Source of the DNA: Marinicella meishanensis
Lineage (GTDB): Bacteria; Pseudomonadota; Gammaproteobacteria; Xanthomonadales; Marinicellaceae
NCBI RefSeq assembly: GCF_019931145.1
Contig: NZ_JAIOUV010000007.1
Span: 1-64,000 of the forward strand
Length of the DNA: 64,000 nt
Reading direction: 5' to 3'
Shown here: positions 4,779 to 58,800 of the stretch, piece by piece
How positions within the stretch are numbered: position 1 is the stretch's first letter
Layout: every line of letters begins with the position of its first letter
Program-made: the position numbers and the translations under genes
The notes under the pieces: generated by a model
The model's database searches: none
What the model was told of the DNA's origin: nothing
The model's input: the letters and a program-made list of their open reading frames with translations, nothing else

Positions 4779-4888
4779 GACTCCCGTCAGCCGGTCCTCA
4801 CACATAAAATCACAGCTGCGGCTGCTCCCTTCCGGGCCTGACCGGGTTCACTGCTATTTATTGCAAGGTGACAAACGGAAGTCACCGA
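4779..4888 (-). ncRNA. ffs: signal recognition particle RNA, small bacterial (4.5S) type
   Basis: Read on the minus strand, this stretch contains the near-universal SRP domain IV signature GTCAGGCCCGGAAGGGAGCAG, where Ffh binds. The 5' segment GACTTCCGT (4883-4875) pairs fully, with one G-U, with ACGGGAGTC (4787-4779) near the 3' end, closing the long hairpin at about 105 nucleotides, as expected for 4.5S RNA. The ends are estimated from that pairing and from the promoter just upstream. The gene lies immediately ahead of dnaX on the same strand. Confidence 0.9.
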
Positions 4889-14341: not shown

Positions 14342-14432
14342 GGAGAGATGGCAGAGCGGTTGAATGCACCGGTCTTGAAAACCGGCATACGTTAATAGCG
14401 TATCCAGGGTTCGAATCCCTGTCTCTCCGCCA
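14342..14432 (+). tRNA. tRNA-Ser (anticodon UGA)
   Basis: This is a complete class II tRNA of 91 bases with encoded CCA. The acceptor GGAGAGA pairs with TCTCTCC. The anticodon loop CTTGAAA gives UGA within stem CCGGT/ACCGG. The variable arm is long (CATACGTTAATAGCGTATC), as required for serine tRNAs, and the T-arm is AGGGTTCGAATCCCT. Immediately downstream begins a 0.6-kb field of hairpin repeats built partly from copies of its own 3' half. Confidence 0.97.
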
Positions 14433-14490
14433 TTTTTATCAGCATCCTTGCTGAAAAAAATGGCGCATAGTCAGTATGAAGAATCCTCTT

Positions 14491-14584
14491 CTGGGTTCGA
14501 AAAATTTTTCCGGAAAAAATTTTGACGCCGCAGGCGCCCGAAGGGGCAAATACAGGATGTATTTGATCAATCCCTGTCTCGCCA
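14491..14584 (+). repeat. tRNA-Ser-derived repeat unit A1 (T-loop split by hairpins)
   Basis: The unit begins with CTGGGTTCGAA, a copy of the T-arm 5' half of tRNA-Ser. It continues with 68 bases of hairpins (14501-14568) and ends with AATCCCTGTCTCGCCA, the T-arm 3' half plus a degraded acceptor end. Hairpins include TTTTTccggAAAAA, a GC-rich cGCCgcaGGCg and CAAATACaggatGTATTTG (14547-14565). The latter has CAGGA at 14553-14557. A spacer with CACTACCAACAAC and CCATCTGAAG separates it from A2 and recurs after A2. Confidence 0.8.
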
Positions 14585-14650
14585 TCCACTACCAACAACC
14601 CACCATCTGAAGTACCTCTTTGGTCGAAAATCCCACATAAGAACCTCTCT

Positions 14651-14809
14651 TTTGGGTTCGAAAAAATTGTCAGGAACAATTTTTGACGCCGCAAGCGCCC
14701 GCAGGGTGAAATGCAGGACGCAATTCATCAAAAATTCGTATGGAGCGAATTTTCACACCAGCCCGAAGGGGCAAATACAGGATGTATTTGATCAATCCCT
14801 GTCTCGCTA
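14651..14809 (+). repeat. tRNA-Ser-derived repeat unit A2
   Basis: It has the same architecture as A1 but a longer, 131-base insert (14663-14793) between TTGGGTTCGAA and AATCCCTGTCTCGCTA. Hairpins in order are AAAATTGTcaggaACAATTTT, a short C/G stem, a partly degraded stem around GCAGGACGC, AAAATTCGtatggagCGAATTTT, and CAAATACaggatGTATTTG. Three loops carry CAGGA (14671, 14714, 14778). The stems differ from one another while the loop core is kept. Confidence 0.8.
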
Positions 14810-14877
14810 TCCACTACCAACAACACCATCTGAAGCACCACCTTGGTCGAAGAGCCAACATACAAACCACTCTTCTG

Positions 14878-15057
14878 GATTCGAAAAAATTGTCAGGAAC
14901 AATTTTTCACGCCAGCCCCGAAGGGGTGAATCGCTGGGATGCGATGAATAAATATTCATCTGGAATGAATTTTACCATTCACATCCCTGTGAATGACCCT
15001 ACGGGTTACATGAAAAAGTTTTCCAGAAACTTTTTTGACGCCGCAGGCGCCTGCTGA
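14878..15057 (+). repeat. tRNA-Ser-derived repeat unit A3, lacking the 3' tRNA remnant
   Basis: It begins GGATTCGAA and runs through at least six hairpins: AAAATTGTcaggaACAATTTT (CAGGA at 14894), AGCCCCgaaGGGG, ATCGCtgggatGCGAT, ATTCATctggaATGAAT, CATTCACatccctGTGAATG and AAAAGTTTtccagAAACTTTT. Positions 14971-15039 are nearly identical to 57885-57953, inside the broken tRNA-Ser copy 43 kb away. No AATCCCTG half follows; the unit runs instead into a remnant of a peptidase gene. Confidence 0.75.
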
Positions 15058-57735: not shown

Positions 57736-58020
57736 CATTCCAATCACATGAAAAAAACGTTACAAGACACCACCCACGCGGTGAGGTGTCTGAGTGGTTG
57801 AAGGAGCTCGCCTGGAAAGCGGCCAAAAACATACTTTGGCGTTAATAGCGTATCGGGGGTTCGGAAATTATGTCAGGAACAAAATTTACCATTCACCTCC
57901 CTGTGAATGGCCCTACGGGTTGCATGAAAAAGTTTTCCCGAAACTTTTTTCACGTCAGCCCAAAGGGGCAAATACATGGATGTATTTGATAATCCCTCTC
58001 TGACATTTCACAAACTTCCC
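57736..58020 (+). pseudogene. broken tRNA-Ser(GGA) copy with hairpin insert in the T-loop
   Basis: This tandem duplicate, offset 295 bases, starts at the promoter of the intact gene downstream. The body (57780-57863) keeps the acceptor 5' strand, D-arm and anticodon stem-loop with GGA. The variable arm carries extra bases (CCAAAAACATACTTTGG region). After GGGGGTTCG the T-loop is interrupted by 127 bases (57864-57990). These contain CATTCAC/GTGAATG, ACCC/GGGT-like, AAAAGTTTtcccgAAACTTTT and AATACatggatGTATT hairpins. Then come AATCCCTCTCTGA and a lost CCA end. The promoter -10 is also degraded (TACAAG). It cannot yield a normal tRNA unless the insert is removed. Confidence 0.8.
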
Positions 58021-58074: not shown

Positions 58075-58165
58075 GGTGAGGTGTCTGAGTGGTTGAAGGA
58101 GCTCGCCTGGAAAGCGGGTATACGTTAATAGCGTATCGAGGGTTCGAATCCCTCTCTCACCGCCA
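58075..58165 (+). tRNA. tRNA-Ser (anticodon GGA)
   Basis: This is an intact 91-base class II tRNA with encoded CCA. The acceptor GGTGAGG pairs with TCTCACC. The anticodon loop CTGGAAA gives GGA, the long variable arm is TATACGTTAATAGCGTATC, and the T-arm is GAGGGTTCGAATCCCTC. It is the functional copy of the locus; the upstream duplicate is broken. Tandem 169-bp repeats begin three bases after the CCA. Confidence 0.97.
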
Positions 58166-58167
58166 AT

Positions 58168-58694
58168 ATTTGCATGCCGCTGGCATACAAATATTGGCAG
58201 TTCGATCGGGTGCCGAACCCGAGCTGGTTCGAAAAAAATGACAGGATCATTTTTTGACGCCGAAGGCGCCCGCAGGTTCAAATGCAGGACGCATTTGATC
58301 AATCCCTCCCCCAACAATTCTCACTCGCCAAACATCATCTATTTGCCGCTGGCATACAAATATTGGCAGTTCGATCGGGTGCCGAACCCGAGCTGGTTCG
58401 AAAAAAATGACAGGATCATTTTTTGACGCCGAAGGCGCCCGCAGGTTCAAATGCAGGACGCATTTGATCAATCCCTCCCCCAACAATTCTCACTCGCCAA
58501 ACATCATCTATTTGCCGCTGGCATACAAATATTGGCAGTTCGATCGGGTGCCGAACCCGAGCTGGTTCGAAAAAGATGACAGGATCATTTTTTGACGCCG
58601 AAGGCGCCCGCAGGGTCAAATGCAGGACGCATTTGATCAATCCCTCCCCCAACAATTCTCACCCGCCAAACATCATCTATTTGCCGCTGGCATT
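58168..58694 (+). repeat. tandem array of 3.1 copies of a 169-bp tRNA-derived hairpin repeat
   Basis: Copies lie at 58168-58340 (with a 4-base insertion), 58341-58509, 58510-58678 and a 16-base start of a fourth at 58679-58694. They are nearly identical to each other. Each contains ATGCCgctGGCAT, GGGTgccgAACCC, CTGGTTCGAA (a T-arm 5' half), AAATGAcaggaTCATTT, a cGCC/GGCg stem, CAAATGCaggacGCATTTG and AATCCCTC (a T-arm 3' half). A degraded acceptor tail ends each copy. Six CAGGA loops lie on the same strand as the tRNA. The repeats are too long and spacer-free to be CRISPR. Confidence 0.92.
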
Positions 58695-58753
58695 GATACA
58701 TCAGTGCATTTTTGGGCAGCTCGAACAGCCGCCAATCATCTATGTTAAGCCAC

Positions 58754-58782
58754 AAAAAAAACCCGCCAAAGCGGGTTTTTTT
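58754..58782. terminator. strong bidirectional terminator
   Basis: An A-run, the perfect stem CCCGC-caaa-GCGGG and a T7 tract lie here. Read rightward it would end a transcript running from tRNA-Ser(GGA) through the repeats. Read leftward it ends the small membrane-protein gene whose stop is at 58801. Confidence 0.93.
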
Positions 58783-58800
58783 ATGCTCACATGGTTACTT

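Follow-up and report, generated by a model that had tools for sequence, protein, structure and literature searches.

Tandem tRNA-linked repeats with putative CsrA-binding hairpin loops behind tRNA-Ser(GGA) in Marinicella meishanensis

A tandem repeat array behind tRNA-Ser(GGA)

The window analyzed here is a stretch of 64,000 nucleotides from Marinicella meishanensis (contig NZ_JAIOUV010000007.1, positions 1 to 64,000, forward strand). It contains a tRNA-Ser(GGA) gene followed on the same strand by three tandem copies of a 169-bp repeat that almost certainly belong to the family of tRNA-linked repeats (TLRs). The features of this locus are listed below, with bit scores for the two models, R1 and R2, that were used to collect the repeat units.

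58075..58165, + strand: tRNA-Ser(GGA), the presumed transcript source (ARAGORN; Rfam tRNA, 50.2 bits)
58140..58220, + strand: inverted repeat from the tRNA 3' end to the first repeat, 39-nt arms, 77% complementary; a trailer hairpin with no T run after it
58175..58693, + strand: tandem 169-bp TLRs, 3.1 copies (repeat searches)
58227..58307, + strand: TLR unit 1, split pseudo T-loop (GGTTCGA...AATCCC) with four hairpins (R1 96.4 bits, R2 82.8 bits)
58396..58476, + strand: TLR unit 2 (R1 96.4 bits, R2 82.8 bits)
58565..58645, + strand: TLR unit 3 (R1 99.2 bits, R2 87.5 bits)
58233..58255, + strand: upstream GGA hairpin of unit 1, 9-bp stem, loop CAGGA; equivalents at 58402-58424 and 58571-58593 (the latter with one stem base changed)
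58278..58298, + strand: downstream GGA hairpin of unit 1, 8-bp stem, loop AGGAC closed by C-G; equivalents at 58447-58467 and 58616-58636
58755..58782, + strand: intrinsic terminator-like palindrome at the array end, perfect arms 58755-58766/58771-58782 (inverted-repeat search)

The tandem-repeat search of the window returned a period of 169 with 99% matches across 3.1 copies; copies 2 and 3 are 100% and 98% identical to copy 1, respectively. Unit 1 starts 61 nt past the tRNA on the same strand, that is, downstream in a stable-RNA operon, which is the position characteristic of TLRs. The original prediction of three 169-bp repeats behind tRNA-Ser(GGA) with a terminator palindrome at the end was confirmed by the repeat searches. 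It had also placed the motif CAGGA at six positions, all on the tRNA strand: within 58168-58782, the + strand carries CAGGA at exactly 58242, 58285, 58411, 58454, 58580, and 58623 and nowhere else, and the reverse complement TCCTG is absent. The further claim of two CAGGA hairpins per repeat holds for copies 1 and 2, both in 5-nt loops, but only in part for copy 3, where a changed stem base leaves the first hairpin imperfect. Base pairing makes the second loop of each repeat AGGAC with a C-G closing pair, within CAGGACG.

Five perfect hairpins with a GGA loop (stem of at least 7) were found in 58166-58790; simulated first-order Markov sequences (n = 500) contained 0.02 of them on average and never more than 1. 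By the same rule, the remainder of the window contains 40 perfect hairpins, with a GGA loop in 0/40 and a TCC loop in 2/40.

Pattern scans called no sigma-70-like promoter upstream of the tRNA-Ser(GGA) array and no + strand terminator-like site between the tRNA and the first unit. The latter result agrees with the original claim that transcription would meet no terminator before 58754, but the scan listed a weaker + strand site at 58690-58707, so that 58754 may not mark the first stop signal; the palindrome at 58755-58782 is absent from that list. A simple series of intrinsic terminators was rejected as an explanation of the array because the sole + strand site called lies behind unit 3, with none within or between the units.

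The feature extends beyond 58168-58782 and includes an upstream pseudo-tRNA copy and a second array:

57780..58010, + strand: pseudo-tRNA-Ser(GGA), T-loop split by units in both orientations, 57922-57998 (+) and 57880-57955 (-) (direct repeats; R2 matches)
14342..14432, + strand: tRNA-Ser(TGA), the other tRNA in the window that a TLR array follows (ARAGORN)
14494..15041, + strand: degenerate TLR array behind tRNA-Ser(TGA), + strand units 14495-14575, 14656-14736, 14726-14800, and 14879-14957, - strand unit 14966-15041

Structure of the repeat unit

The repeat consists of GGTTCGA, an insert, and AATCCC, that is, the tRNA-Ser T-loop (TTCGAAT) opened between A and A. The insert comprises four hairpins: hairpin 1 is A+T-rich, with 9 bp and the loop CNGGA; hairpins 2 and 3 are small, the former with a mostly GNA loop and the latter usually of the form CCC-GNA-GGG; and hairpin 4 has about 8 bp, the loop A(N)GGAX, and a C-G closing pair. 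As in CsrA-binding RNAs, GGA is located in the loops of stable hairpins, with C in the first loop position of hairpin 1. The tails of the window units (AATCCCTC, 10 extra bases, and TCTCAC(T/C)CGCCA) are related to the tRNA sequence (AATCCCTCTCTCACCGCCA) but interrupted.

Single-unit folding of the window units was unremarkable (z -0.26, -0.26, -1.06, and -0.54), and energy-based folding of the tRNA-Ser(TGA) unit at 14488-14580 did not produce the expected outer hairpins. Folding of the entire array is more favorable than that of 20 shuffled versions (z -2.63); its minimum-energy fold pairs neighboring repeats, and the centroid structure retains most of the outer hairpins. The rrB unit of Escherichia coli, discussed below, folds into the same four hairpins (z -5.02).

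Conservation of the loops and covariation of the stems

Model R2 is a covariance model built from 138 matches in 84 sources, none known to be Enterobacterales. Alignment A1 included 24 of 30 units, those dropped being L020 at -248, L047 at 479 and 879, L057 at 160, the window tRNA-Ser(TGA) unit at 389, and the third copy behind tRNA-Ser(GGA) of the window. Because the A1 units had been chosen by their GGA loops, loop counts in A1 prove nothing, and loop-blind patterns were run for that reason. No model was built from alignment A2 (23 of 39 masked units), owing to misalignment of its inner hairpins. R1 and R2, with which alignments A3 and A4 were collected, had seen GGA loops, whereas the loop-blind patterns had not.

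The loop-blind patterns, which impose nothing on the first loop but fix one stem sequence family, identified GGA there in 13/13 matches in the class sample (11/369 genomes) and in 111/114 matches in the order sample (65/398 genomes; the exceptions are CCAGA, CCGAA, and CAGGT), counts that are not independent because the matches are related by descent. Reversed-pattern controls gave 0 in every genome listed. In A3 (131 distinct units), GGA is present in the loop of hairpin 1 in 127/131 units and of hairpin 4 in 125/130, and in the inner hairpins in only 10/130 (hairpin 2) and 15/131 (hairpin 3); in A4, the class set, hairpins 1 and 4 each have GGA in 41/43 units, and hairpins 2 and 3 in 6/42 and 2/43, respectively. 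A crude count of the last hairpin (n = 79) gave GGA in 55 cases, a non-GGA loop in 21, and no hairpin in 3, a lower GGA count than that from the alignment because perfect stems were demanded. GGA-less TLRs are undercounted in all these tallies given that rtT-like units, at 18.5-27.6 bits, would fall below the whole-genome threshold. The closing pair of hairpin 4 is C-G in 126/127 units.

In contrast to the loops, the stems change. In A3, 23/24 pairs have changed on both sides, and pairing is observed in 95.0% of the cells vs 31.5-51.4% with the partners slid, pair counts that lean to the R1 structure because A3 was fitted to R1. The changes are mostly from Watson-Crick to Watson-Crick pairs, with few G-U, and this scarcity of G-U steps also fits correction of a DNA palindrome. 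Among perfect hairpins located between -900 and +1200 of the tRNA at 33 tRNA-Ser loci of the genus (n = 168), GGA is found on the tRNA strand in 96, on the opposite strand in 22, on both in 3, and on neither in 47.

Distribution and linkage to stable RNA genes

The possibility that the array is peculiar to this genome was rejected because R1, R2, and the patterns match many relatives. R1 matches 31/33 genomes of the family at E 0.01 and 160/299 genomes of the order sample; R2, in a search run without negative-control genomes, matches 169/369 gammaproteobacterial genomes at E 1e-5. A pattern that combines the T-loop with the first hairpin detected at least 119 stretches in named genomes, and 41 of 119 such loci were among the 84 sources of R2. 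Genera among the matches listed include Rhodanobacter, Dyella, Luteibacter, Dokdonella, Alishewanella, Arsukibacterium, Aestuariibacter, Bowmanella, Shewanella, and Thiohalophilus.

These 119 stretches contain 128 matches. Within 600 bp, a tRNA or tmRNA is encoded on the strand of the unit for 111 of these and on the other strand for 1; 16 have no such neighbor. Among the matches listed, the tRNA or tmRNA of the same-strand 111 lies 5' of the unit in 89 and 3' in 22; the linked tRNAs, among the matches listed, are those for serine (66), Gln (17), Arg (8), Tyr (7), Val (4), and Glu (4), with T-loop copies favored because the search pattern contains T-loop letters. The 29 new R2 loci listed include 20 with a tRNA or tmRNA within about 300 bp and 9 without. 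Several relatives (e.g., L087, L091, L092, and L102) have, by eye, a terminator-like hairpin between the tRNA and the unit, as at rrnB, so that read-through may be partial in those relatives.

The tail after the unit is identical to the adjacent tRNA over 18 letters in 18/60 matches listed, and the tail-tRNA score is at least 14 in 23/61 (61 of 84 matches, from the 80 stretches listed, being usable), vs 0/2068 pairings with tRNAs for other amino acids. Such copying of the adjacent tRNA 3' end is what would be expected if the array were a relic of tRNA 3'-end duplication by recombination, kept as a spacer or terminator, any role of which would lie in processing or termination. The terminator-like hairpins that flank several units can be read in the same way, as can the fact that E. 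coli TLRs except RrA, RrB, and RrF are without known function, according to the pertinent sections of PMC8144298. A relic of this kind would not, however, keep two specific loops while 23/24 pairs change on both sides, and we consider this explanation very improbable.

In the class sample, R2 matches 153/312 csrA-positive vs 16/57 csrA-negative genomes (p 0.004) and, in the good-quality subset, 139/279 vs 5/35 (p 4.8e-5), the five csrA-negative, R2-positive genomes of good quality having been picked by hand on completeness and contamination. This co-occurrence was dropped as proof of a CsrA role; the support it lends is weak because genome size and missing assembly parts are confounders.

Relationship to the TLRs of Escherichia coli

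The first report of TLRs in E. coli dates from 1978. Of the 22 now known in that species, every one terminates in a duplicate of the final 18-19 bp of the preceding tRNA or rRNA, and a paper of 2021 stated that TLRs had been without known function (PMC8144298). As described in the sections of that paper on CsrA, tagged RrB RNA copurifies CsrA, RrB binds CsrA in vitro with a KD near 100 nM, and replacement of three GGA motifs yields a variant that was unshifted in the tested range; CsrA binding is published for RrB and, by extension, RrA and RrF. Only these three rRNA-linked TLRs are suggested there to bind CsrA, the 19 tRNA-operon TLRs having a CsrA score below 0.01. The same sections report RrB only in Enterobacteriales; the in vivo effects of RrA, RrB, and RrF were modest and contradictory, with deletion and overexpression acting alike (PMC8144298). 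Outside enterics, RtT sRNA is annotated, expressed, and cold-induced in Thioalkalivibrio, according to the relevant part of PMC8092127.

R2 matches the E. coli rrnB terminator region with 75 bits (E 5.2e-19) and the loops CGGGA and AGGAC. We identify this unit, unannotated in the record, as rrB by its location, between the terminators of rrnB and the 5S end repeat; the sequence around it duplicates the 5S end, opened at GA/A. For the rtT repeats of E. coli, together with the copy in the tyrT-tyrV spacer, the scores are 27.6, 26.3, 25.8, and 18.5 bits (all four copies); the rtT units share the split T-loop and the hairpin order, and GGA loops are absent. Given that rtT keeps its hairpins without GGA loops, GGA is not needed for TLR persistence. 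In the argQ-argV region of E. coli, R2 reaches only 10.7-14.2 bits, the first hairpin being lost, and no R2 match was obtained in the metT-glnX region at E up to 1. Judged by sequence, the window array is homologous to the E. coli TLRs (rrB, rtT); the original prediction placed the repeats behind a tRNA but missed the known family.

Similarly to RrA, RrB, and RrF, the window array combines a unit with a following, here interrupted sequence related to the stable-RNA 3' end, four hairpins in the same order, outer GGA loops, and a terminator after them, all on the same strand. It differs from these in being located behind tRNA-Ser rather than 5S rRNA, in its three tandem copies, in belonging to a lineage outside Enterobacterales, and in having no terminator-like site called between the stable RNA and the first unit. 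With RtT/RttR (RF00391, tyrT-tyrV), the window units share the split T-loop GGTTCGA/AATCC, the order of the four hairpins, and the tandem copies behind a tRNA (spacing 178 nt in E. coli), whereas they differ from E. coli RtT in having GGA loops.

The Rfam RtT model (RF00391) gave no match in the window at the gathering threshold and none in ten loci at E up to 1, so that the relationship emerges with R2 alone. With Rfam CsrB (RF00018), there was likewise no window match at the gathering threshold, and a conventional CsrB/RsmY/RsmZ gene in the window was rejected for lack of an Rfam match. The sX4 model (RF02223) produced partial matches over tRNA-Ser, below the cut-off. No description of a GGA-loop TLR family outside Enterobacterales was found in open-licence PMC papers.

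csrA, a CsrB-like candidate, and additional units in the genome

A search of the genome yielded one csrA match, with an 82-residue product very close to solved CsrA/RsmA proteins, so the original claim of CsrA sites does not fail for want of the gene. Downstream of csrA, on the same strand, we noticed by eye four pseudo-tRNA-Ser(GCT) units, a true tRNA-Ser(GCT), and one more unit; the first two pseudo-tRNA units are opened in the D-loop and the next two in the T-loop (L045, 3240-4560, - strand). One further unit of the genome adjoins tmRNA, and another is located in, and antisense to, a gene that we take to be Y1-transposase-like from its translation and motifs. The three tRNA-Ser arrays carry 7, 7, and 7 GGA hairpins on the tRNA strand vs 2, 3, and 0 on the opposite strand (stem of at least 6, G-U allowed).

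The search for a conventional CsrB proposed along with the original prediction produced a candidate elsewhere in the genome, a CsrB/RsmB-like RNA at G000:C7:232421-232732 (- strand; L001, 1480-1920), but at 24 bits, under the Rfam cut-off of 71. The candidate includes 20 GGA motifs in 440 nt, 14 of these with a stem of at least three pairs by a lax rule, and has loops similar to those of the TLRs, e.g., AGGAA and AGGAT closed by C-G. Its folding z is -1.26, with 9/100 shuffles as good, and chance-looking ORFs overlap it. This is perhaps the conventional CsrA sponge of the genome, so the TLR arrays would not be the sole sponge.

A putative CsrA-titrating trailer

The explanation that we favor, and regard as probable, is that the array consists of TLRs with CsrA-binding loops and that its trailer titrates CsrA in step with tRNA transcription. 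Under this scenario, the unit would be a tRNA-Ser 3'-end copy, with the T-loop opened by the four-hairpin insert, and the outer hairpins would present CsrA/RsmA loops, namely, CNGGA and, with a C-G closing pair, A(N)GGAX. RNA polymerase starting at the tRNA promoter would read through past the trailer hairpin as far as the terminator at 58782; it might be stopped earlier by the weaker site at 58690-58707, still past all six GGA hairpins. tRNA processing would free the tRNA and a trailer RNA with three pairs of GGA hairpins, and the trailer could bind CsrA, lowering free CsrA in proportion to tRNA transcription. The CsrA dimer has two RNA-binding sites, and paired hairpins about 20 nt apart accordingly would suit the dimer.

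We infer transcription at this locus, CsrA binding by the array RNA, and titration in the cell. Binding is likely, and the original claim of CsrA sites gained good indirect support from the presence of csrA, the fit of the loops to A(N)GGAX, the conservation of the loops against changing stems, and the CsrA binding of the homologue rrB. A real titrating role of the array RNA in the cell seems quite possible, if somewhat doubtful. The published consensus is A(N)GGAX, with the hexaloop ANGGAX on a stem as the high-affinity form; as given in the binding data of PMC4005645, affinity falls 10 to 1000-fold when N is omitted, and the pentaloops AGGGA and AAGGA bind well. Against the CsrA reading, the hairpin 1 loops begin with C and not with the consensus A, the hairpin 4 loop in the window, AGGAC, omits the N of A(N)GGAX, and 16/169 R2-positive genomes, five of these of good quality, are without a csrA match. 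The GGA-less rtT units, the energy-based fold of the unit behind tRNA-Ser(TGA), the modest effects of RrA, RrB, and RrF in vivo, the copies that are inverted or located in transposase-like genes, and the lack of an upstream promoter call also weigh against this reading.

The array resembles CsrB, CsrC, RsmY, and RsmZ in its many GGA hairpin loops and presumed CsrA titration; unlike the array, these are stand-alone genes, not linked to tRNAs. In its description of 3'ETS-leuZ of E. coli, PMC8144298 likewise presents a tRNA precursor trailer as a sponge, although one for base-pairing sRNAs and not for a protein as proposed here.

Through its CsrA-type loops, the array may couple tRNA production to a global regulatory system. 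Among the units within reach of these models and patterns, outside Enterobacterales and at numerous tRNAs, GGA loops predominate, with E. coli rtT as the exception; what was long a curiosity thereby offers a connection between the synthesis of stable RNA and a global regulator that can be put to the test. The covariance model, the structure, and the loop consensus obtained here are, in the loci tested, beyond the reach of the Rfam RtT entry. Our broader proposal is tentative: TLRs could be a class-wide, ancestral device of Gammaproteobacteria, in which CsrA decoys are appended to transcripts of tRNA, tmRNA, and rRNA and the level of free CsrA is thereby set continuously by the synthesis of stable RNA. 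E. coli would have kept only rrA, rrB, and rrF, with rtT-type repeats as eroded remnants, and the genus of the window would have elaborated tandem arrays along with D-, anticodon-, and T-loop decoys in pseudo-tRNAs, one array adjoining csrA.

Insertion sites and possible mobility of the units

Examination by eye indicated GA/A as the entry site of the insert, whether in the T-loop, the D-loop, or the anticodon loop or in the tail of 5S rRNA, and no target duplication was evident at these junctions (L045, L047, L063, L118, and L287). Two loci, L047 (about 1960-2170) and L118 (about 1450-1720), contain a pseudo-tRNA-Ser(TGA) with an intact-looking anticodon stem and a hairpin insert in the anticodon loop; L047 has a T-loop insert besides. 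These pseudo-tRNAs look like a natural tRNA scaffold for RNA hairpins.

Units are also found inside or beside genes that are transposase-like by their translations (L086, L122 [Y1-transposase-like], L263 [IS256-like], and L119-L121), in antisense orientation where the ORF spans the site; the unit inside the IS256-like gene of L263 has AGCCCA on both flanks (by eye). At L270 (1400-1640), a unit lies within an apparent dispersed repeat with the ends GTCATTCCGGCGAAAGCCGG and its inverse. From the copies in transposase-like genes, inside another repeat, and in inverted orientation, it follows that the insert moves or is copied.

A selfish palindromic DNA or RNA element, entering loops at GA/A and spreading by copying, with GGA being read by the mobility machinery and CsrA irrelevant, would account for the inserts in the T-, D-, and anticodon loops of pseudo-tRNAs (L045, L047, L063, and L118), in the 5S tail copy at E. 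coli rrnB, in transposase-like genes, and in another repeat. Such an element would further be compatible with the predominance of changes between Watson-Crick pairs and the paucity of G-U, as produced by DNA palindrome correction, and with the mostly GNA triloops of hairpins 2 and 3, given that GNA triloops form stable DNA hairpins. It leaves unexplained the tRNA-strand bias (111 same-strand and 1 opposite of 128, among matches listed) and the agreement of hairpin 4 with a protein-binding consensus that was published independently; moreover, the family member RrB binds CsrA, although the element could be compatible with CsrA binding. We therefore consider this explanation unlikely. The Rickettsia palindromic elements, which are alphaproteobacterial and consist of short palindromic inserts in genes and stable RNA genes, resemble the TLR inserts in this general respect.

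In genome G010 (G010:C54:33728-54573; L046, L015), a TLR array is located ~20 kb from tRNA-Ser(GGA) on the same contig and starts with the tRNA tail CTCTCTCACCGCCA; an island was probably inserted at the tRNA 3' end in this genome. This arrangement, as if an island had been inserted in between, would be accommodated by a DNA landing site, the duplicated T-loop and tRNA tails being sites where integrative elements attach, or scars that they leave, with the hairpins acting as DNA. The units, of about 80 nt, have no genes inside, and neither the conserved GGA loops nor the tRNA-strand bias is predicted by such a site, which makes it a highly improbable explanation compared with the CsrA-binding trailer.

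A 27-bp hairpin similar to that at 57925-57951 of the window (TCCC loop; GGGA on the other strand) is present on at least five contigs of genome G013. The window also encodes a bacterial small SRP RNA at 4782-4877 (- strand; 67.7 bits).
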